Shown here: positions 15,097-24,481 of the stretch, one piece after another | Numbering within the stretch: the first letter of the stretch is position 1 | Layout of the letters: the number at the start of each line of letters is the position of its first letter | IMG/VR virus record: IMGVR_UViG_3300047510_002126 | Location: 1-24,481 of that record | Direction: 5' to 3' (one strand) | Length of the DNA: 24,481 nt | Source of the DNA: a virus | Notes under the pieces: model-generated | What the model was told of the DNA's origin: nothing | Database searches by the model: none | The model's input: the letters and a program-made list of their open reading frames with translations, nothing else | Made by a program: the position numbers and the translations under genes

Positions 15097-15324
15097 ATGT
15101 TGGTCAAAGTAGAAGGCACAAATCTGTATCGTGATACAGAAACTATGGCTTTAATTAATAGAGACACCAAAGAGAGAAACGATTATATAATGAAGACTCG
15201 CTTAATTAAGAACCAAAAAGATCAAATAAATACCGTAAAAGAAGAAATAGAAGTCATCAAGGGCGAAATGTCCGAGATTAAACAATTGATGATAAAACTA
15301 CTCGAAAAAGGTTCAAATGGCTAA
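15097..15324 (+). CDS. Small coiled-coil structural protein
   Basis: This is a 75-residue protein starting MLVKVEGTNLYRDTETMALI. The first 30 residues look like a short globular or beta segment. Residues about 31-72 form a charged heptad-like helix (KDQINTVKEEIEVIKGEMSE), predicted to be a coiled coil. The ATG at 15097 sits one base after the previous stop. An in-frame ATG at 15067 lies inside the 551-residue gene and would add an unconvincing MLCHQEQDYK, so 15097 is preferred. The end overlaps the following fibre gene by eight bases. Position suggests a trimerising adaptor or chaperone for the adjacent fibre, but the role is unproven. Confidence 0.7.
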   Translation: MLVKVEGTNLYRDTETMALINRDTKERNDYIMKTRLIKNQKDQINTVKEEIEVIKGEMSEIKQLMIKLLEKGSNG

Positions 15325-18300
15325 TACAGTTACATCGTTAAGTTACGCAAACACATTTGGTGAGTGGGTTGTTGCGACTAATAGTCTTATTAGAGAGAAT
15401 AATGATCTTGCGGCAAATGATTATGTTAAAAGCACAGGTACACTTTACCTAAATGAAACTACACAAAACTCTCTTCAATCAAACGGAACTGTAATCATAC
15501 AGAAAGAACTGCTTGTACAAGGTACAGGTTCATCTGCGACAGTGCAAAATAATTTAAACGTTGGTAGTCAATTATATCTAACAAATGGTACACTAAGTTT
15601 AGTTGCATCAGGTCAAGCAAACGTTGCTGGTCAGATTAACGGGCAAGCTTCTGGTATTGGTCTGTTCATTGCAAACAATGCACATATTGGTGGCACCACA
15701 GTTTCCGCTGTTAGACTGACAACAGGAGTTTTGCAAGCAAACTCTTCCGTCAATACATCAAACGCATCGATTGTTAATACATTATTCACTAAAGATTTAC
15801 AGGCAAATTCAACAGTTAATACAGCAACCGCTTCTGTAACTGGTACCACATTTACCAATGTACTACAAGCCAACACATCAACAAACACAAGTAATGCTTC
15901 GATTGTTGGAACGACATACACCGGTATGTTACAAGCCAATACTTCTGCAACTGTTGGTACATTGCAAGCTAATACATCCACAAATACTGCTACTGCGTCC
16001 GTAACAGGCACCACATTTACTAATGTATTGCAGGCGAATACGTCAACTAACACCGCCACTGCATCTGTAACAGGTACCACATTTACCGGTGTGTTGCAAG
16101 CCAATACATCAACAAATACGGCAACAGCATCTGTAACTGGTACCACATTTACTAATGTACTTCAAGCCAATACTTCTTCAAATACCAGAACAGCTTCTGT
16201 AACAGGAACAACATTCACTGGTTCATTGCAGGCAAACACTTCTGCAATTGTTGGAACGTTACAGGCTAATACATCGACAAATACTGCCACAGCATCTGTC
16301 ACAGGCACAACATTTACGGACATTTTACAAGCGAATACGACCGCAATAGTTGGTACATTACAGGCCAACACAACTGTAATTGCACCAACATCATCCGTAT
16401 CTGGTACAACATTCACCAATGTTTTACAGGCCAATTCGACCGTCAACACAGCAACAGCATCGATAACTGGTACAACATTTACAGACACTCTACAAGCGAA
16501 TACAATTGCTATTGTAGATTCACTAAGAGCTAATGCCGCAGTAAATACGAACTCGTTACTTGCAAATACTATTACTGTCAATAACAGTATTAATGCTAAT
16601 GCTGCCGCCGGTTATTTTAATAGTCTGTCTGTTCAAGGTGGTGGATTAACAGTTGGTGGAAACTTTGTTATAACTGGTACAACTGTATATACTTCAAATA
16701 CATTCGTTCTTTCTTCAAACGTTTCATCGGCAATTTCTAGTTATTTTAATGTTGATAGAGGATCTACTGGTGTAGATGCAGCGTTCCGTTGGAATGAACC
16801 CAACAAATATTGGGACATGTTGAATGTCACATCAAACACATACTATCGTGTTTTGACAGATGAATATTTGAATGATACATTAACATCTACCAGTACAACA
16901 TCTGTTTCAACTGCAAATGCAGCCAACACACTAAACAATCTTTTAAATACAGCAAATACTTTCTTACAAACTGGTATTGCTTCTTCAGGATTATATGCAA
17001 ACGGAGCATTCTTAAGAGCTAATGCTGCATACAATTCTCAAAATACAACTGGCACATACGCAAATAATGCATATGCACAGGCAAATACAGCAACTAATAA
17101 CGCAGCTGGTGCATCACTGTATGCCAATGGTGCTTTCATACAAGCCAATGCTGCATTCTTGAGAGCTAATACACCAGATGCAATTGCAAACTCTGCTGCG
17201 CTGTATGCCAATGGTGCATTCGTTCAAGCCAATGCTGGTTATACACAGGCCAACACTGCAACCAATAACGCAGCTGGTGCTTCCTTATACGCGAACGGGG
17301 CTTTTACACAAGCTAATGCTGGTTACACACGAGCAAATACTGCAACCACCAATGCGGCGACAGCTGACAGTAAAGCAGTAACAGCTGGTTCTTATGCAAA
17401 CTCCGCATACGGACAAGCAAACACCGCTACGACCAATGCAGCAACAGCAGACTCTAAAGCTGTAACTGCTGGGTCTTATGCGAACTCAGCGTATGGTCAG
17501 GCTAATACCGCCACAACGAATGCATCTGTTGCAACCAACAATGCGGCTGGTGCATCTCTGTATGCGAACGGTGCTTTCATACAGGCAAACGCAGCATTCT
17601 TAAGAGCCAATACACCAGACGCTATAGCAAACTCTGCAGCACTCTATGCCAATGGTGCTTTTGTACAAGCTAACGCAGCTTTCACAACAGCCAATAGTGC
17701 ATTAAATGCAAGTAATCTTTCAAGTGGTACTGTTCCTCTTGCACGTTTAAGTGGTATTACAACTACACAACTGAGTACAAGTGCTGGTATTATAAACGCA
17801 CAATTACAAAATAGCACAATTTCTGGTGTCGCTTTAGGTTCAACTTTAGCTTCACATTCAGCTGGAACTTATTTGGTTGGCAGTGCTTATAATGGCAGCA
17901 CAGGTCAAACATGGTCTGTTGATGCCACCACAACGAATACTGCAAGCAAAATTGCAGCAAGAGATAGTGCTGGTGATATCTACGCAACAGTATTCAGAGG
18001 TCTTGCAACTAGTGCCAACTACGCTGACTTGGCAGAAAAATATTTGGCTGATCAAGAATACGAAGTTGGAACAGTTGTTGCTGTTGGTGGTGAAGCAGAA
18101 GTTACCGCTGGTTCATATGGAGATAGAGCAATCGGAGTAGTATCTGCTCATCCTGCTTATATGATGAACAGTGAACTGGAAGGTGGAACTTATATTGCAC
18201 TTAAAGGTAGGGTTCCAGTGAAAGTATCTGGCACTGTGCGTAAAGGACAACGCTTGGTTGCATATAACAACGGTACGGCTGTTGCAGCAGTGCCACACGC

Positions 18301-18376
18301 AAATGACGTTTTCGCAATCGCACTAGAATCGAGTGATGATACTGGAGTAAAACTAATCGAAGCAGTGATTTTATAA
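15317..18376 (+). CDS. Large repeat-rich tail-fibre protein
   Basis: The protein has 1019 residues. Residues 1-130 form an N-terminal domain (TSLSYANTFGEWVVATNSLI). Residues about 138-400 hold a 22-residue repeat (QANTSTNTATASVTGTTFTN). Residues about 405-555 are a non-repeat beta region with FRWNEPNKYWDML. Residues about 558-798 are YANGAF/QANAAF repeats. A linker (SSGTVPLARLSGITT) typical of fibre tips leads into a C-terminal domain at about residues 898-1019 (ANYADLAEKYLADQEYEVGT, GDRAIGVVSAHPAY, VRKGQRLVAY). That terminal domain is common on marine phage fibres and resembles the family of autoproteolytic fibre tips; whether it cleaves itself cannot be told. AAGG nine bases upstream supports the start. 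A receptor-binding or rod fibre is likely. Confidence 0.75.
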   Translation: MANTVTSLSYANTFGEWVVATNSLIRENNDLAANDYVKSTGTLYLNETTQNSLQSNGTVIIQKELLVQGTGSSATVQNNLNVGSQLYLTNGTLSLVASGQANVAGQINGQASGIGLFIANNAHIGGTTVSAVRLTTGVLQANSSVNTSNASIVNTLFTKDLQANSTVNTATASVTGTTFTNVLQANTSTNTSNASIVGTTYTGMLQANTSATVGTLQANTSTNTATASVTGTTFTNVLQANTSTNTATASVTGTTFTGVLQANTSTNTATASVTGTTFTNVLQANTSSNTRTASVTGTTFTGSLQANTSAIVGTLQANTSTNTATASVTGTTFTDILQANTTAIVGTLQANTTVIAPTSSVSGTTFTNVLQANSTVNTATASITGTTFTDTLQANTIAIVDSLRANAAVNTNSLLANTITVNNSINANAAAGYFNSLSVQGGGLTVGGNFVITGTTVYTSNTFVLSSNVSSAISSYFNVDRGSTGVDAAFRWNEPNKYWDMLNVTSNTYYRVLTDEYLNDTLTSTSTTSVSTANAANTLNNLLNTANTFLQTGIASSGLYANGAFLRANAAYNSQNTTGTYANNAYAQANTATNNAAGASLYANGAFIQANAAFLRANTPDAIANSAALYANGAFVQANAGYTQANTATNNAAGASLYANGAFTQANAGYTRANTATTNAATADSKAVTAGSYANSAYGQANTATTNAATADSKAVTAGSYANSAYGQANTATTNASVATNNAAGASLYANGAFIQANAAFLRANTPDAIANSAALYANGAFVQANAAFTTANSALNASNLSSGTVPLARLSGITTTQLSTSAGIINAQLQNSTISGVALGSTLASHSAGTYLVGSAYNGSTGQTWSVDATTTNTASKIAARDSAGDIYATVFRGLATSANYADLAEKYLADQEYEVGTVVAVGGEAEVTAGSYGDRAIGVVSAHPAYMMNSELEGGTYIALKGRVPVKVSGTVRKGQRLVAYNNGTAVAAVPHANDVFAIALESSDDTGVKLIEAVIL
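15729..16520 (+). repeat. 66-base coding repeats (TATASVTGTTF) in the large fibre
   Basis: A 22-residue unit (LQANTSTNTATASVTGTTFT) is repeated with exact 66-base spacing at least at 15995, 16061, 16127 and 16193, and more loosely on either side. Shorter inserts (IVGTLQAN) interrupt the register. Nucleotide copies differ mainly at third positions. These are protein-coding repeats: there are no unique spacers of the kind found in a CRISPR array. Confidence 0.85.
16996..17710 (+). repeat. YANGAF/QANAAF coding repeats in the large fibre
   Basis: Repeats of the type LYANGAFIQANAAFLRANTPD occur here several times with linkers TATNNAAGAS and NTPDAIANSA. They are of the same family as those in the 470-residue fibre gene at about 5329-5604, indicating duplication or exchange between the two fibre genes. 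Boundaries are approximate. Confidence 0.75.
17348..17515 (+). repeat. Tandem 84-base repeat, identical in protein but recoded in DNA
   Basis: Two adjacent 28-codon copies (17348-17431 and 17432-17515) encode exactly the same peptide (TNAATADSKAVTAGSYANSA, then YGQANTAT). Comparing codon by codon, 17 of 28 codons differ, all synonymously, including an AGT/TCT serine change. Part of a third, diverged copy follows from 17516. Confidence 0.9.
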
Positions 18377-18458
18377 ATTTCGAAATCCTGCGTTCCGGCC
18401 CGAAAAAAATCTCGGCGCTTCCCAGGGTCCGAAAAGTCATTTTTACTTTTTGCTTGTT
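18377..18458 (+). promoter_or_regulatory. GC-richer intergenic boundary with weak hairpins
   Basis: This is the longest gap in the window. Positions 18387-18432 are clearly richer in G and C than anything nearby (GCGTTCCGGCCCG, CTCGGCGCTTCCCAGGGTCC). CGGCCC (18396-18401) can pair with GGTCCG (18426-18431) apart from one mismatch. AAAAGT (18432-18437) can pair with ACTTTT just beyond, within a T-rich stretch. It separates the fibre genes from the radical SAM cluster, so a terminator, promoter or processing site is plausible. No standard promoter or Shine-Dalgarno sequence is visible before the ATG at 18459. Confidence 0.35.
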
Positions 18459-18989
18459 ATGATAACACTAGATGAGTTTGAAAACTTCTTGTACACAGAT
18501 TTGGTATACGAACAGAAAATAATTTCTGTTATTGATGATCAATCTAGGCAAATATTAATTGATAGTGTACATCAGTTACATGAATACTCAAACTGTACCA
18601 TAAAACTGGAACAGATGGAAAAATACAACGAAAGTATTTTCCAAAAGTGTCAAGAGTTGAAAGCAAAGTACTCGCATCCAGGTCCAATGACTTGCCATGC
18701 ATTCCTTGCTTTCAAAGGTTCTAAGAGTTTTGGTTTGCATACTGATCCAGACAATGTTATAATAGAATGTATCTTTGGTTCAAAGACACTGTATGTTGAT
18801 ACCAAAAATGATAGAAGACATGTGCTCAAACAAGGCGAATATATATTCATACCAGCCAACAAAGAACACGAAATCGTTAATGAAGAGAAATCATTGATAT
18901 TGAGTTTTGGATTTGAAAAATTTTACACTGAGAAACTTAAATTAAATTATGGAATCGATGTTCTACCTCAAAACGACAGAAACTTGTAA
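18459..18989 (+). CDS. Cupin / JmjC-like Fe(II) oxygenase-type protein
   Basis: The protein has 176 residues. The second half carries a cupin core: GLHTDPDNVIIECIFGSKTL with His94 and Asp96, then KQGEYIFIPANKEHEIV with His137. An HxD...H triad plus 'GxYIxIPxxxxH' is the pattern of JmjC/cupin_4-type Fe(II)/2-oxoglutarate oxygenases, such as those that hydroxylate ribosomal proteins. The first 75 residues are helical and charged. It is the first gene of the modification cassette, and the radical SAM gene begins within its last 41 bases, implying coupled expression. By inference it could hydroxylate a residue of the Cys/His-tailed 179-residue protein, or of another target. A non-enzymatic cupin is possible, because the 2-oxoglutarate-binding residue cannot be identified with certainty. 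ATG 18459 is chosen over TTG 18450; neither has a clear ribosome site. Confidence 0.65.
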   Translation: MITLDEFENFLYTDLVYEQKIISVIDDQSRQILIDSVHQLHEYSNCTIKLEQMEKYNESIFQKCQELKAKYSHPGPMTCHAFLAFKGSKSFGLHTDPDNVIIECIFGSKTLYVDTKNDRRHVLKQGEYIFIPANKEHEIVNEEKSLILSFGFEKFYTEKLKLNYGIDVLPQNDRNL

Positions 18990-19998
18990 TCTAGACTGTC
19001 TTCATTGTTTCACTAGTGGTTCCAAAGGCGCAAAGATATACTGGAACCATGTCAAAGTCGCTGATTGGTTACAAAGACTCTCAGAAAAAACACCATACAT
19101 AACACACGCACACTTTGAATTTCATGGTGGTGAACCATTTCTGGCAGATATTTCTTCACTTCAATACGTGTACGACAACTGCCAGAATCTATGGAAAAGC
19201 CAGAGTTGGGGCGTCACAACCAACCTAACATTCAAATTAGATCAAGAAAAAATAGACTTCATAATGGGTCCTTTGGGTGGCAGAGTTGGTACCAGTTGGG
19301 ATCCAGATATACGATTCGCAAATCCTAAACAGTATGATCTCTGGAGAAAGAATGTACAAACACTGATCGATCTAGGTGTTGTTATCAAGTTGTTTGTCAG
19401 TGTAACAAAAGGAACTATTGCAATAGAACCTATAGACTTACTTGAGTGGGTCAAGTCACTTGGTGTCACAGAACTTGCACTAGAGAGACTGACGATGAAT
19501 GGTAGTGCAAAACAAAATTTGCATATATTTCCTACAAACATCGAACAAGACCAATGGTTTCTTAAGATGCATCAACAAATTGAAAAACATGATGCGAGAG
19601 ACTGGTTTGTAAATGAATTTATGGAAACCGTATATGATAAATTCGAAACTGGATTTACAGGTGGTGGAACATTCTGTAGAGACTGTGAGGAGAAGTTATT
19701 CACCGTGAATGCTGATGGCACTGTATCGGGCTGTCCAAATTCCGCACCAGAGTTTCAGTTCGGCACGATAGACGATGACATAGATGCATTACTATCTAAT
19801 CCACAGAGATTGGAGAACATTGCGTGTGAGAGAGCAAGAGATCCTAGGTGTTATACGTGTGAGGTGTTCCAATATTGCAACAGTGATTGTCACCAGTTAG
19901 AGTGGCAAGGTGATATCTGTGGTGCACCAAAGAGTTTGATGATGGACTTGGCAAAAATAAATAAAAAACACCCAGTTTTCAACCTTCTACAGGTTTAA
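18949..19998 (+). CDS. Radical SAM/SPASM peptide-modifying enzyme (first of three)
   Basis: The protein has 349 residues. The radical SAM motif CNLDCLHC (Cys13, Cys17, Cys20) binds the SAM-reducing 4Fe-4S cluster, and HGGEPF (Gly60-Glu62) is the SAM-binding GGE motif. The C-terminal SPASM domain is textbook: Cys246-x10-G-x4-Cys262, then Cys301-x2-Cys304-x5-Cys310-x3-Cys314 and Cys324, which would hold two auxiliary 4Fe-4S clusters. This architecture is that of enzymes maturing peptides or proteins (sactipeptide, mycofactocin, PQQ and anaerobic sulfatase types). No RRE-like recognition domain is obvious; the enzyme starts only 12 residues before the first Cys. It overlaps the cupin gene by 41 bases, and the next radical SAM gene follows after one base. 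ATG 18958 is an alternative start. The target is unknown; the CHSS-tailed protein downstream is the best candidate. Confidence 0.92.
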   Translation: MESMFYLKTTETCNLDCLHCFTSGSKGAKIYWNHVKVADWLQRLSEKTPYITHAHFEFHGGEPFLADISSLQYVYDNCQNLWKSQSWGVTTNLTFKLDQEKIDFIMGPLGGRVGTSWDPDIRFANPKQYDLWRKNVQTLIDLGVVIKLFVSVTKGTIAIEPIDLLEWVKSLGVTELALERLTMNGSAKQNLHIFPTNIEQDQWFLKMHQQIEKHDARDWFVNEFMETVYDKFETGFTGGGTFCRDCEEKLFTVNADGTVSGCPNSAPEFQFGTIDDDIDALLSNPQRLENIACERARDPRCYTCEVFQYCNSDCHQLEWQGDICGAPKSLMMDLAKINKKHPVFNLLQV

Positions 19999-19999
19999 T

Positions 20000-21025
20000 G
20001 TGTTAACCAGAACAAAACCATATTCGACAGCATACGAACAGTACGGTGATCCACATAAACTTGTGGAGTTCCGTATGATGGTGCTCAATCATTGTTCTAT
20101 GGACTGTAAAGGATGTTTCTACAAGAGAACTGATAACAATTTCAACGATTTCAAAAGTTCAAGGTCTTTGGCAGAAGATATGCAATCGAATGGATATCGA
20201 TTGGAGACTTGTTATCTACTACCGACAGACATATTTGACAATAAAGATAACTACCTGTTATTCAACGATGAAGATTTCTCAGCAACAGTATCACAGTTTG
20301 CATATTTGGGTATCGCATCGACACTAGAAGATGGTTTTGATACCAAATTCTTTGATATTGTTTATGGTTTGAATGATGATATCAAGATCGAACTGCAAGT
20401 GAATCTTTTGGTGAGTAAATTGTTTGACATAAACTATCAAATGATACTCAAACACAATGTGAACCGAATCAAAAATCTATACAAAGACAGAATAGTAATT
20501 AATCTGGCAATCAATACTGGGTTTTCATTAGATACCAAAGAAAAAGATAAAATCAAATCAATGTTGAAATACCTTAGTGAAGATGGTATCGTAGAATTGA
20601 ACTTCACTTTCCTATATAACAAGGATATTTCGGAAGAAAAGAAACAAAAGATGATGAAAGATAGCATCAGAATCATTCAAGATTTTGGTGATTTCTACCA
20701 GAAAGACGATTCGTTTGTCACTAAATACAACCAACGCACATTCTTACGCAAACCATCTTTCGTTTTCGTTGGGGAACCAAACACAATATACGTCAATCCT
20801 ATAGTTCCCTTTGACGAATATGTTTACATTAAGAAAGATAGATATGTTGTTGAGTCTCCAACATACGATGGTTTTTTAAATTCTTATGGTAAAATAACTG
20901 AGATAAATACACCAGTAGTAGACGCCTGCGAATCTTGCGAACACTTGACTCACTGTATGGGTAAGTTTTACTTTGCTATATCAAATGATTTTGACTTAGG
21001 GTGTTTCTTAAATCTGAAGGAATGA
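20000..21025 (+). CDS. Divergent radical SAM protein with reduced auxiliary-cluster region (second of three)
   Basis: The protein has 341 residues. The motif CSMDCKGCFYKR gives Cys32, Cys36 and Cys39 for the SAM cluster. The GGE motif seen in its two neighbours is not recognisable; LLPTDIFDN occupies a comparable place. The C-terminus has Cys310-x2-Cys313-x5-Cys319 and Cys335, but lacks the upstream C...GxxxxC pair and the fourth close Cys of a full SPASM domain. It may bind a single auxiliary cluster (twitch-like), or may act as an inactive partner. Its central part is rich in lysine, aspartate and isoleucine and differs from the other two enzymes. The start is GTG at 20000, one base after the preceding stop; the first in-frame ATG is only about six residues before Cys32 and so is less likely. 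It lies directly upstream of the CHSS-tailed protein. Confidence 0.85.
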   Translation: MLTRTKPYSTAYEQYGDPHKLVEFRMMVLNHCSMDCKGCFYKRTDNNFNDFKSSRSLAEDMQSNGYRLETCYLLPTDIFDNKDNYLLFNDEDFSATVSQFAYLGIASTLEDGFDTKFFDIVYGLNDDIKIELQVNLLVSKLFDINYQMILKHNVNRIKNLYKDRIVINLAINTGFSLDTKEKDKIKSMLKYLSEDGIVELNFTFLYNKDISEEKKQKMMKDSIRIIQDFGDFYQKDDSFVTKYNQRTFLRKPSFVFVGEPNTIYVNPIVPFDEYVYIKKDRYVVESPTYDGFLNSYGKITEINTPVVDACESCEHLTHCMGKFYFAISNDFDLGCFLNLKE

Positions 21026-21035
21026 TGGAGAAAAA

Positions 21036-21575
21036 ATGGCAAATTCTGGTTCATTAATTACAAAACAGAGCATAGTAGACGATTACTATTCGTATATTAG
21101 GAATCCCGCATACAATGCAGTGGTTTTTTGGAGTGGAAATAATCCTGGTCCTTCCAGAATTAATACTGGCGCTCTTGGGCCAAGAGATTTTACTGCAAAT
21201 TTGGCAACAGGTAACATAACAGATACTGTCGTAACTGCAGCAACAATTGTCAATCAAGTTAGAAGTTTTGCTGCATACACAACAGCCGCAAGAAGAGCTC
21301 GTAGTGGTTATATTGTGGATAATTTTAGTCCAGATGAAGCACCATATACGATTGATGATAGAACCGATGTTTGCCGTTTAACAGACAGTTATTTAATTGG
21401 CTACACTTATGGTGGTAGTGTGAGTAATCCTGTGGGTGCAACAAACATCAATCAATTCTATACTAATATTAGATCAACTGCTCAGAATGCACAAACATCA
21501 GCAGCCGTAGTAGATTTACGTGTGTGCCACAGTTCATGTCACAGTTCATGTCACGGTTCAAGAGGAAGAAGATAA
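21036..21575 (+). CDS. Putative modification target: 179-residue protein with C-terminal CHSS-repeat tail
   Basis: The protein is not recognised as a known family. Residues 1-150 look like a compact alpha/beta phage structural protein without a signal peptide (SIVDDYYSYIRNPAYNAVVF, TAARRARSGYIVDNFSPDEA). The last 16 residues (164-179) read CHSSCHSSCHGSRGRR: three Cys spaced by three, each followed by His-x-Ser, then a basic end. Only one other Cys (about residue 112) occurs. Such a tail is both a CXXX repeat and a His-Xaa-Ser repeat, two patterns known from targets of radical SAM maturases. Its gene sits between radical SAM genes two and three, with GGAG before the ATG. It may be a virion tip decorated by the cassette. 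An unmodified metal-binding tip, like the iron-binding HxH tips of phage spikes, is an alternative. The tail is seen directly; its role is inferred. Confidence 0.75.
   Translation: MANSGSLITKQSIVDDYYSYIRNPAYNAVVFWSGNNPGPSRINTGALGPRDFTANLATGNITDTVVTAATIVNQVRSFAAYTTAARRARSGYIVDNFSPDEAPYTIDDRTDVCRLTDSYLIGYTYGGSVSNPVGATNINQFYTNIRSTAQNAQTSAAVVDLRVCHSSCHSSCHGSRGRR
21528..21551 (+). repeat. Exact tandem 12-base repeat encoding His-Ser-Ser-Cys
   Basis: CACAGTTCATGT occurs twice in a row (21528-21539 and 21540-21551), and a third, partial copy starts CACGGTTCA. The repeat encodes HSSC units of the C-terminal tail. Exact repetition in DNA, in contrast with the recoded repeats of the fibre gene, suggests recent expansion or a tail whose copy number can change. 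Confidence 0.9.
21561..21572 (+). promoter_or_regulatory. Shine-Dalgarno sequence embedded in the RGRR tail codons
   Basis: The codons for the final Arg-Gly-Arg-Arg of the CHSS-tailed protein (AGAGGAAGAAGA) contain GAGGA, placed about nine bases before the ATG at 21576. The start codon follows directly after the TAA stop. Translation of the 352-residue protein is therefore probably coupled to completion of the tail. Confidence 0.6.
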
Positions 21576-22634
21576 ATGTTTCATATTGCTAACAGAGTAT
21601 ATTTGGAATACGATTACAAATTCCATCAACAATACCCATATATTGTTGCATCAAGTAGATGGAAAGATCATCCAGTAACCATATCGAAAAGTGAACTAGT
21701 TGCTCAGGTACCAAGTTTCGAAGAACTGTTATCTGAGAGATATAATAATAACATCGAAACTTTTTGGTCAGCATTGTTATCTGAAACCAGAAAACTTGTT
21801 GTTTTCGTTGATCCGGAAACTATGGCAAAGTTGCAGTTTCAATATTGGAAAAGTATTTTCAAAGATGGTGTAAAGGCAGAAGACTTACACAAGTTACATG
21901 CCAGTTCTATAGAAAGTAACAGATTATCCAGTTACTACGCTTTAACTGGTTCATGGGACAGAGGCACAAATTCCTGGACCAAATCTAATGCATTCACCGA
22001 ATTGACCATACCAACTTTGGCAGATTCTACCAAACTGTTTAATGAAACTGTCGCATCGAATGCTATCAAATCGATGAACAAATCATCTGTCAGTATTGAA
22101 TATTTGATGGCTGATTTCTTCTATAACAATACTTCCAGTTACAAACAAGAACTACTAAAGAGAATTGAGTTTCTAACTTGGGATAACTGGTTGGATGAAC
22201 TAGAGCATTTAAAATATGAAATTATTTCTGGCAACATCGATGCTGGTAAATTAGATACATCTTTAAATATGAGTATCGGTAACATCGAAAGTGAACTGGC
22301 GAAAAGTGACTTGTTAAAATGGACTGTCGATCCAGCTTTCACCAATGATGCGGAGTATATCAAAGCAAATTATGATCCGCAAATTTTTGTTAACTGTTAC
22401 ATCAAATTAGCAGAAGTTTGGCAACATGAATATGATGACATGTCAGAACTCAGTAGACTAATTAATGAAGAACAATATGAAGAGTTGTTGAATAGAGATA
22501 TTAACAGGAACTATGGTTGTTCTTATACACGCACACGATTCTTTGAAAAATCCAATCATGTGTTTGCCACATGGTGTTATGACTTGAAGAGAAAAGGTCA
22601 AACTTCTCAGTTGTCATCATTCGTTCTACGTTGA
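21576..22634 (+). CDS. Unknown 352-residue protein of the modification cassette
   Basis: I do not recognise this protein. It begins MFHIANRVYLEYDYKFHQQY and has a predominantly helical second half (LDELEHLKYEIISGNIDAGK, YIKLAEVWQHEYDDMSELSR). It has only three Cys (about residues 272, 317 and 332), not arranged as a cluster site, and no SAM, cupin, ATP-grasp or protease motif that I can identify. No membrane segment or signal peptide is seen. It starts immediately after the stop of the CHSS-tailed protein with a strong ribosome site, and is followed by a small hairpin gap and the third radical SAM gene. The tight coupling suggests a partner, chaperone or recognition protein for the tail, or a further modifying enzyme of unknown type. 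Confidence 0.75.
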   Translation: MFHIANRVYLEYDYKFHQQYPYIVASSRWKDHPVTISKSELVAQVPSFEELLSERYNNNIETFWSALLSETRKLVVFVDPETMAKLQFQYWKSIFKDGVKAEDLHKLHASSIESNRLSSYYALTGSWDRGTNSWTKSNAFTELTIPTLADSTKLFNETVASNAIKSMNKSSVSIEYLMADFFYNNTSSYKQELLKRIEFLTWDNWLDELEHLKYEIISGNIDAGKLDTSLNMSIGNIESELAKSDLLKWTVDPAFTNDAEYIKANYDPQIFVNCYIKLAEVWQHEYDDMSELSRLINEEQYEELLNRDINRNYGCSYTRTRFFEKSNHVFATWCYDLKRKGQTSQLSSFVLR

Positions 22635-22637
22635 TGT

Positions 22638-22661
22638 AACACTTAATTTTTCGTGAGTGTT
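22638..22661 (+). other. Intergenic hairpin before the third radical SAM gene
   Basis: AACACTTA (22638-22645) pairs with TGAGTGTT (22654-22661), giving eight pairs including one G-T wobble, around an eight-base loop ATTTTTCG. It ends ten bases before ATG 22672. No T tract follows, so a simple terminator is unlikely; an RNA stability or translation-control element is possible. A GTG start at 22657 would lie inside the stem, which favours the ATG. Confidence 0.45.
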
Positions 22662-22671
22662 TAATTATAAT

Positions 22672-23793
22672 ATGTATTCGGTATTCTCAAAAGAATTTAA
22701 TGTCGTTTACCTTAGGGTGGTACAAGGGTGCAACTTAAATTGTACTCATTGTTTCACTCTGGGTAATAAAGATCCCATCATGTTCACAGAATTGTCCGTT
22801 CTGGAAAAATTCTTAACATCAATACGAAACAATGTAAATCCGCAGAAGGCGACTTTTTACATTCATGGTGGCGAAACATTTTTAGCACCACTAGAATATC
22901 TATCAAGTGTCAACGATCTAATTCGGGAAAAGTTTCCTGATATAAAGATGGACATAATACCACAAACAAATTTAATCTACAAGGTAGACCAAGAGTTTGT
23001 GGAGTTTATCAAGAAAGAATACAGAGGCACGATAGGTGTTAGTTGGGATGCCGACATACGATTTGGATCGGTAGCCATCAACAAAAAATCGGAACAAGAA
23101 GAAGTGTTCTTTAAGAACCTCCGATATCTGATCGACAATGGCATCAAAGTACACATTGCCATTACTGCACAAAAGAATTTACTGAATTATGATCCAATAG
23201 AGATCGTAGAAAAATTTGACGGCGTTGATAGTATAGACTTTGAATTGTTGACCACGTTTGATGATCAAACAAGAAGTCTGCGGCCAAACAATTTGAAATG
23301 GGCAAACTGGTTGGATAAACTTGTCACGTATTATGAGAACAATGAAACAACTTGGTGTCTGCCACAAATTGATCTGTTTACAAAGACATTGATGACAGGC
23401 AAGATGTTTGATTGTAAATGTAACTGTTGTGATAAACGAACATTCACCTTGAATCCAAACGGAACTGTTGGTCTGTGTCCAGACATGACTTATGTTGAAC
23501 CATTCAGCACAGTGGATGAAATGTCAACGGATTGGTCAACGTTCGAATCCAAGTCTTTGGACCTGATTGTAAAGAAGATCACCGCACAACAAGAACATGA
23601 GATGTGTTTCAAGTGTGAACACTACGACATTTGTGGTGGTAATTGTGACGCTTCATTATTTGATGACACAGAAGAATGCCCTCTGAGCAAGAAGGTTATT
23701 AGTCGCATAAGAGGCAACATAAATAATTTTATTCGACTTTATGAACAAAAAGCCAAATCTAATTTGACAGAACTGAGAGAAAATTATGAATAA
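22672..23793 (+). CDS. Radical SAM/SPASM peptide-modifying enzyme (third, paralogue of the first)
   Basis: The protein has 373 residues from ATG 22672; an in-frame GTG at 22657 would add five. The motif CNLNCTHCFT (Cys20, Cys24, Cys27) binds the SAM cluster, and HGGETF is the SAM-binding GGE segment. The C-terminal SPASM domain is complete: C-x10-G-x4-C (NPNGTVGLC), then CFKCEHYDICGGNC followed ten residues later by a final Cys, i.e. C-x2-C-x5-C-x3-C. An additional CKCNCC cluster precedes it. It shares with the first enzyme not only the motifs but also CNLxCxHCFT, HGGExFLA and GxSWDxDIRF, so the two are paralogues. They may modify different residues of one target, act in sequence, or form a heterodimer. 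Its stop overlaps the start of the next gene by eight bases. Confidence 0.92.
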   Translation: MYSVFSKEFNVVYLRVVQGCNLNCTHCFTLGNKDPIMFTELSVLEKFLTSIRNNVNPQKATFYIHGGETFLAPLEYLSSVNDLIREKFPDIKMDIIPQTNLIYKVDQEFVEFIKKEYRGTIGVSWDADIRFGSVAINKKSEQEEVFFKNLRYLIDNGIKVHIAITAQKNLLNYDPIEIVEKFDGVDSIDFELLTTFDDQTRSLRPNNLKWANWLDKLVTYYENNETTWCLPQIDLFTKTLMTGKMFDCKCNCCDKRTFTLNPNGTVGLCPDMTYVEPFSTVDEMSTDWSTFESKSLDLIVKKITAQQEHEMCFKCEHYDICGGNCDASLFDDTEECPLSKKVISRIRGNINNFIRLYEQKAKSNLTELRENYE

Positions 23794-24481
23794 GATCCGA
23801 GAAACTGTGGCACCTCTGCCAATTGAAACAATCAAAGAATATTTCCACGACAAAGAAATTTCTTTCTTGGTTGATTACGAAAACTCCAAGATTGCGGATA
23901 AAATTTTCTTAACATATGTTTCTAACCTAGACATACCACTAGATATCAAGTTGAGAAAAGACTTTCCCAAAGAAAAATTGTTTTCTCTAATTGATGCATA
24001 TATGGATGTAAAAACTATTTGCAATGTTGAAACATTGACTATGATGGTTGTACACATTCTACTCAAAGCAATCGGTGTAAACACAAAAGAATCATTGGCA
24101 AATACCTTTATGTCTGAAGAATTGGTCGATGAATTCATTGAAACAAGAAAAGAAAAAGTTTCAAAGTGGGCTCACTTTCTAGATTCTTCAATGTTGTTTC
24201 TGATCTACTCATACAAAGATTTGAATGAAAAGGTAAAGGTCGAGGAATCTTTCCCGAAAATAGAAGATGCAAATTATGTCGGTTTGAATATCGTAAACCT
24301 ATTCAGTGTTCCTGGGTTTATGAATTGTTATTTCGGTGCAGGTCCAACTCCAAACATGAGTTTCTTCACTGAACAATTCACCAAGTATATGTTCAAAGGT
24401 AAAAACCTATTCGACTATTTCAATAACGAAGAGAATATGTTTGTACCATTATTGATCGGTCTTGTTGAAAAGAAGTTGGAG
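23786..24481 (+). CDS. Unknown protein, 3'-truncated by the window end
   Basis: The ATG at 23786 overlaps the end of the third radical SAM gene by eight bases, and GAGAG lies just upstream. The frame is then open for 232 codons to the last base of the window, with no stop. The visible protein starts MNKIRETVAPLPIETIKEYF and contains FLVDYENSKIADKIFLTYVS, an apparently helical middle (TLTMMVVHILLKAIGVNTKE) and a phrase FSVPGFMNCYFGAGPTPNMS. There is no Cys cluster and no obvious signal peptide. I do not recognise a family. The overlap makes it part of the same transcript as the radical SAM cassette, so it may be another cassette member or the first gene of the next block. Confidence 0.75.
   Translation, partial: MNKIRETVAPLPIETIKEYFHDKEISFLVDYENSKIADKIFLTYVSNLDIPLDIKLRKDFPKEKLFSLIDAYMDVKTICNVETLTMMVVHILLKAIGVNTKESLANTFMSEELVDEFIETRKEKVSKWAHFLDSSMLFLIYSYKDLNEKVKVEESFPKIEDANYVGLNIVNLFSVPGFMNCYFGAGPTPNMSFFTEQFTKYMFKGKNLFDYFNNEENMFVPLLIGLVEKKLE

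Follow-up and report, generated by a model that had tools for sequence, protein, structure and literature searches.

The question raised by the locus studied here is what purpose is served by a short tail, rich in cysteine and histidine, that ends a small viral protein, and which of the enzymes encoded around it may act on it. The window (the whole stretch of DNA analysed, 24,481 nucleotides, positions 1 to 24,481 of IMG/VR record IMGVR_UViG_3300047510_002126) carries all of its features discussed below on the plus strand. The presumed substrate, here termed the carrier, is a 179-residue protein translated from the open reading frame at 21036..21575 and ending ...DLRVCHSSCHSSCHGSRGRR; its C-terminal tail CHSSCHSSCHGSRGRR (21525..21572) comprises codons 164-179 exactly. 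The initial annotation described three Cys, each followed by His-x-Ser, at the end of a protein with one other Cys, and the translation confirms this: all three His of the carrier and three of its four Cys are within the tail, the sole Cys outside it is found in TDVCRL, and there is no His elsewhere. The tail had been interpreted as a radical SAM modification site, a metal-binding tip, or each in turn. Of this interpretation the modification half is now well supported, whereas metal binding as the sole function is disfavored. The reading preferred here, at a probability of roughly 0.62, is that a dedicated radical-SAM modification cassette has the tail as its substrate segment, and that the carrier belongs to the virion as a protein of its tail-fibre/baseplate region.

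The carrier body itself provided few inroads. The window carrier had no match in Pfam or NCBIfam, and its last 48 residues match phrog_35144 (E 5e-9, PHROGs). An AlphaFold model built with an alignment of 70 of 76 non-redundant carriers was good except in the tail (pLDDT 85.3, pTM 0.78), and the fold recurs in gp170 of Agrobacterium phage Atu_ph07 and in a 178-residue viral protein (BFVD). Since a PDB fold search found no match for the carrier, nor for the cassette protein phrog_20767 described below, no function was inferred from folds. Whole-carrier tblastn in phages and a single-sequence search of viral contigs likewise found nothing; the body diverges too fast for BLAST, and relatives had to be reached by synteny from a neighboring enzyme.

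The tail, by comparison with the body, is readily recognized. In viral contigs, at least 119 stretches match the pattern CHxxCHxxCHxxRxRR, in which a stop codon was not required, and a stop directly follows RxRR in 114 among the 119 stretches listed. When six earlier loci are added, the matches listed number 147, and a stop comes directly after 142 of them; counted per locus, again among the matches listed, this holds for 120 of 125, the five without a direct stop being L013, L048, L062, L065 and L122 (the last cut at its end). A control pattern in which Cys and His exchange places matched 8 stretches of the viral contigs, and in no case did a stop come next. The tail occurs far more often than chance would give. 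In 198 distinct carriers it is encoded by 184 different DNAs specifying 93 peptides, with TGT/TGC and CAT/CAC each used about half the time, and this mixture of Cys and His codons indicates that selection acts on the protein. Whether Cys/His spacing is conserved while the number of repeats varies had been proposed as a check; the spacing of the standard tail is indeed conserved, but the number is not variable, being three in 203 of 204 distinct carriers and four in one. The 198 carrier bodies fall into 12 BLAST clusters (143, 39, 3, 2, 2, 2, 2 and five singles), and the two largest have no clear relation by profile comparison (E 0.006, probability 6%), so that the tail is found on at least two bodies without detectable kinship; as far as sequence comparison can tell, the clusters have nothing but the tail in common. 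Some loci (L008, L032, L041 and similar ones) encode two tandem short carriers of about 125-140 residues, belonging to a second body family and bearing the same tail, and these loci also hold several G-type radical SAM genes.

Relatives of the locus were found through radical SAM/SPASM enzyme A (18949..19998), which identifies the jumbo phages Atu_ph07 and Sinorhizobium Phosso as well as Burkholderia phages SURPRISE13, FLC6 and FLC8 and Pseudomonas DT01. The five of these six phages that were examined (Atu_ph07, Phosso, SURPRISE13, FLC6, DT01) all have the same cassette, and in all five the gene after enzyme A, encoding 178 to 306 residues, has the same tail end: CHSSCHASCHNSRSRR, CHTSCHASCHSSRSRR, CHSSCHTSCHGSRGRR (both Burkholderia phages) and CHTSCHTSCHSARGRR. 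Other CHxxCH patterns in these five records occur elsewhere only singly. No tail was read in MT839433, a short unannotated record of 4.3 kb with 25% identity to enzyme A. When viral contigs were searched with enzyme A alone and 80 of 368 relatives were kept, the tail was present in 75 of 75 uncut loci, the remaining five (L175, L179, L191, L200, L205) stopping at a contig end close after the enzyme; it is this linkage, together with the resemblance of variant tails to HxsA-type repeats, that supports the proposed modification site. A second viral-contig search, using distant members of the enzyme A family as queries, added 79 loci, of which 44 have the full tail, 23 have three CHx[SN] repeats and a final I or L replacing RxRR, three have altered tails, one has a chaperone fusion, and four are cut short (L282, L286, L313, L321). 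No carrier was seen in the other four (L259, L304, L324, L333), three of which are on contigs of 7 to 11 kb; L259, a 122-kb contig without any CH triple, is so far a true exception to the link of tail and enzyme A. Counted over both searches, which overlap in contigs, there are 81 distinct C-termini with RxRR, 21 without it and 2 altered. In the reverse direction, a radical SAM gene is present at 114 of 120 tail loci, and at 97 of 100 having at least 3 kb on one side.

The enzymes of the window can be assigned to broad classes, with the proviso that all enzyme names are distant matches under the curated cut-offs of every functional family. The cassette begins with a cupin or JmjC-like Fe(II)-2OG oxygenase (18450..18989), placed in this class by a JmjC_2 profile match over cut-off (PF08007, 24.8 bits; cut-off 22) and an HxD...H triad that is kept, with a Lys 13 residues after the Asp; H97, D99, K112 and H140 are invariant in 5 sequences (alignment A2). 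Among 2OG oxygenases in the PDB it matches the histidyl hydroxylase MINA53 best (E 3.8e-6); other cupins, e.g. quercetin dioxygenase, outscore MINA53. Enzyme A (phrog_1802, E 2e-64) and enzyme C (22657..23793; phrog_1802) belong among the radical SAM/SPASM maturases, both having CxxxCxxC and a SPASM cluster domain (TIGR04085 over cut-off); in the enzyme A family, CxxxCxxC and 8 further Cys, 11 in all, are invariant (alignment A1), and the nearest named families of enzyme C are DynA, sulfatase maturase and YhhB. Enzyme B (20000..21025) is a divergent radical SAM-like protein with CSMDCKGC (CxxxCxxC) and only a weak Pfam match; it has relatives in L208, L213, L221 and L033, a variant that includes Bdellovibrio-like loci. 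Two conserved cassette proteins follow the carrier. One, phrog_36207 (21576..22634; PHROGs match), is a protein of unassigned function and occurs in 61 of 82 RxRR loci with at least 5.5 kb downstream. The other, phrog_20767 (23786..24481, cut by the window end; E 6e-65), occurs in 82 of 82 such RxRR loci and 8 of 8 RxRR-less ones; its AlphaFold model, from an alignment of the window and 55 of 70 sequences listed, has a pLDDT of 95.5. The usual order in phages is fibre gene, JmjC-like gene, enzyme A, carrier, phrog_20767, phrog_36207, then enzymes D, E and F or G; the arrangement in the window, which has enzymes B and C, is less common and is shared with L033 and three Bdellovibrio-like loci. 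Inside Burkholderia phage cassettes, two adjacent dihydrofolate-reductase-like genes were also noted (L004:14406-15583 and L006:14319-15532).

Natural variants of the tail bear on which residues would be modified. The tail of L253 reads C HSS HSS HSS HSS RGRR, i.e., one Cys and four HSS, and that of L254 (identical in L309) C HSN HCS HSN HGS RGRR, with two Cys off register; both are His-Xaa-Ser/Asn repeats without a Cys spacer. In L330 and L332, which carry CHYSCFTSSCHFSRGRR, Phe replaces one His, and in L251 (CHSNCYTPPPKSRSRR) Tyr does so. Coordination of zinc or iron by the three Cys and three His, either alone or following modification, would suit the constancy of these residues in the standard tail, and phage spike tips bearing metal are known. 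These losses of Cys (L253, L254/L309) and replacements of His (L330/L332, L251) in distant homologues nevertheless argue against a pure metal site, and such a site leaves the several radical SAM genes per cassette unexplained, making this a quite unlikely account. Loss of Cys or His with the radical SAM genes kept had been put forward as evidence that would count against the original proposal; it is absent from close homologues and seen in distant ones, which nevertheless retain H-x-S/N-like units. A modification centered on Cys, with thioether links from the tail Cys (ranthipeptide/sactipeptide-like, of the CXXX-repeat type) and His secondary, is less easily set aside. The best named match of enzyme A is the thioether-forming PapB (47 bits, below the curated cut-off), CX3C spacing is constant in the standard tail, and there are weak matches to CXXX-repeat maturases that fall short of their cut-offs (enzyme D to TIGR04115, 18.2 against 350; enzyme C to TIGR04119, 20.2 against 150). 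Even so, L253 keeps enzymes A, D, E and F with its one Cys and four HSS, and the two Cys of L254/L309 are off register, so thioether formation is considered possible but doubtful. One variant or another dispenses with Cys, with RxRR or with the repeat spacing, and aromatic-x-Ser/Asn-like units stay, which suggests that the ring side chain serves as the chemical handle, to judge from a handful of variants. In the part of PMC11002830 available, three-residue rings are reported from His, Phe or Tyr to the residue two places on, and ring-forming radical SAM enzymes are reported to tolerate aromatic swaps (His to Tyr in ScaB); the Phe of L330 and the Tyr of L251 fit this tolerance.

Conservation of the Arg-rich end was another point proposed for checking, and the final RxRR is conserved yet dispensable, as 23 loci end CHGS[IL]. 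These RxRR-less loci lack the JmjC gene (0/23) and enzyme D (0/8 with 5.5 kb downstream), and keep enzyme A (23/23), enzyme E (8/8) and phrog_20767. For comparison, RxRR loci have JmjC in 167 of 204 with 2.5 kb upstream, enzyme D in 77 of 82 and enzyme E in 72 of 82 with 5.5 kb downstream, with the reservation that the loci counted overlap and are non-independent, the RxRR-less side being one clade. Loss of RxRR, JmjC and D together, with A and E kept, suggests that the repeats may be the target of A and E, and the Arg end that of JmjC and D; the 37 RxRR loci without JmjC argue against a strict rule for RxRR and JmjC. The same clade bears on another proposal, that formylglycine or another single-residue oxidation is made at CHxSR, as in anaerobic sulfatase maturation, for which the motif is C-x-A/P-x-R. 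An Arg is indeed present at Cys+4 in the third repeat, and the enzyme A profile matches an anaerobic sulfatase-maturating enzyme first among solved structures (4k37, E 4.9e-8), but 23 loci have enzyme A and no Arg after the third repeat, and repeats one and two have no Arg at all; this chemistry is judged very improbable. Covalent haem attachment is suggested by CxxxCH, which occurs twice in the tail and resembles a variant haem motif. It is scarcely credible, as CxxCH is missing, radical SAM enzymes are not haem ligases, and the carrier N-terminus (MANSGSLITKQS...) has no obvious signal peptide by eye. The metal-only, haem and formylglycine readings were all placed below that of a radical-SAM substrate segment.

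Among described systems, the His-Xaa-Ser system is most similar, with C-terminal His-x-Ser repeats adjoining two or more radical SAM enzymes. In G271, an HxsA-like protein beside HxsD ends HYSHYSHASHSSHSSHSSHSSHYSSSR, likewise with His-Xaa-Ser-type repeats. The L253 tail matches HxsA2 (NF038296; E 6.6e-5, 23.9 bits) below the curated cut-off of 48, enzyme A matches HxsB at 34.6 bits (cut-off 370) and enzyme E matches HxsC at 24.5 bits (cut-off 267.9); the window carrier had no NCBIfam match to HxsA or HxsA2. HxsD (TIGR03976) was over cut-off in none of 14 records, the window itself being a fragment, and a positive control found it in 1 of 229 genomes; phrog_20767 compared by eye with HxsD showed no likeness. 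Unlike the His-Xaa-Ser system, the standard repeats here are Cys-spaced and end in RxRR, the carrier is a phage protein of the fibre region, and the cassette adds JmjC and up to six radical SAM genes. The best reading is that the cassette would work like a His-Xaa-Ser system while falling below each curated cut-off tested. Viral contigs scanned for trimers of His-Xaa-Ser (with TCN serine) yielded three stretches, which were set aside: the match in L256 is in an ORF resembling low-complexity sequence, and in L257 and L258 no in-frame RxRR tail was seen. Triceptides (HaaB, ScaB, YhhB, MscB) offer a second parallel, in that enzyme C matches YhhB at 53.6 bits, below the cut-off of 445 and the best among the cyclophane maturases tested (YhhB, GrrM, FxsB, AmcB), all of which scored under their cut-offs. 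Triceptide targets reported in the available part of PMC11002830 have His or Phe at position i, followed at i+2 by Ala, Arg or Ser; here, by contrast, the putative substrate is a whole phage protein and not a small peptide, and a similar cross-link chemistry would be a presumed one.

A location of the carrier in the virion is suggested by its surroundings. Directly upstream of the cassette is a long tail-fibre-like protein (15317..18376; phrog_19602 tail fiber, E 1e-8), and T4-like baseplate genes (phrog_219, phrog_438) are further upstream in the window. The fibre-like protein has dense NANTS/QANTS-type repeats. In a part of PMC6102473, virion mass spectrometry of Atu_ph07 places CDS 170-215 among the three clusters with most virion proteins; gp170, the carrier, is the first gene of this cluster, which is known as a range and not at peptide level, and gp215, the major capsid/head protein in both sources, confirms the numbering. 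The Peptidase_S74 domain makes trimeric fibres and cuts itself off. The Pfam search found no such domain in the window carrier, which in this respect differs from S74 fibres and from the mosaic adhesive trimer (MAT) fibres of Bdellovibrio. It is present in the carrier of L334, where a Peptidase_S74 chaperone (PF13884, E 1.5e-11) comes after four CH repeats and contains SDxxxK, the Peptidase_S74 motif according to the available part of PMC10769870; with self-cleavage the repeats would remain near the end of the mature chain. The suggestion of a tip protein gains support from this fusion and from the fibre-gene surroundings.

Resemblance to MAT fibres extends to predatory bacteria, in which S74 proteins adjoin four cassettes, in part with prepilin N-termini. 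Two of these proteins (L229:6959-8146(-), L254:17135-18334(-)) have both a type IV prepilin N-terminus (PF07963) and a C-terminal Peptidase_S74 over cut-off, and in two others (L226:17658-18698(-), L231:15421-16500(+)) only S74 is over cut-off. A genome-contig scan for the tail gave 19 stretches, 16 of them with the tail followed by a stop in an open frame of at least 67 residues, and 8 of the 16 are in records of Bdellovibrio-like families or genera; the flanks of several were read by eye as chromosomal, e.g. with cytochrome oxidase genes. Within the phylum of G006, 10 of 191 genomes encode enzyme A, and six of these ten had already been found through the tail. Of the four additional genomes, G071, G091 and G157 have altered tails (the G157 locus, on a 9.5-kb contig, may be viral), and in G160, where the cassette runs to the contig end, the tail was not seen. 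A search for phrog_219 in nine predator genomes gave no signal, its control being equally silent. A predator cassette also includes a B12-binding radical SAM protein (L227:8548-10308), and in two genomes runs of several probable 2OG-Fe(II) oxygenase genes, identified by eye, adjoin the cassette (L254:2694-7417, L252:4014-8712). The text of PMC10769870 available on MAT fibres mentions neither the tail nor radical SAM enzymes; no literature was found that links such enzymes to a virion part, whether under phage fibre, structural and RiPP terms or among listings on His-Xaa-Ser and Bdellovibrio, in a search mostly outside subscription journals.

It could be held that the enzymes are coincidental neighbors acting elsewhere and the tail an unmodified assembly or docking signal, as modification of the tail is deduced indirectly. 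The joint occurrence of tail and enzymes across very distant phages and predator chromosomes, and tail variants that accompany enzyme losses, make this improbable. With the tail taken as a modification substrate, the working unit would most likely be His-x-Ser/Asn, Cys-spaced in its standard form. Enzymes A and E, constantly accompanied by phrog_20767, would probably form a single bond in each unit, such as one closing a three-residue ring between the His side-chain ring and the Ser/Asn beta carbon at the second residue beyond, and the JmjC-like hydroxylase and radical SAM enzyme D would probably come into play at the RxRR end or at a later stage. The cassette would thus most likely cross-link or oxidise His-x-Ser/Asn units on a virion tip protein, and the product would give a fibre or tip that contacts or pierces the host envelope a compact end, cross-linked and positively charged. 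In short, the tail may form the end of a viral attachment structure, hardened by chemical means.

Radical SAM enzymes that mature peptides have been described for small natural products. The nearly invariant 16-residue tail of the present phage protein accompanies a cassette of several enzymes in predator chromosomes and in more than a hundred contigs of uncultured viruses, as well as in jumbo phages that infect Agrobacterium, Sinorhizobium, Burkholderia and Pseudomonas. A more far-reaching and tentative proposal, on balance unlikely, is that this represents an undescribed, widespread virion maturation in which His-x-Ser units are radically stapled into an Arg-capped fibre or tip end, with chromosomal machinery of Bdellovibrio-like bacteria, beside a prepilin/S74 hybrid, hardening a prey-attachment fibre. 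Phage radical SAM, cupin and 2OG genes are listed as accessory or role-less in the available parts of PMC5468394, PMC11898562 and PMC8066314, and modification of a virion tail would give such genes a purpose. The unsolved chemistry of His-Xaa-Ser systems would at the same time become testable on an abundant particle.
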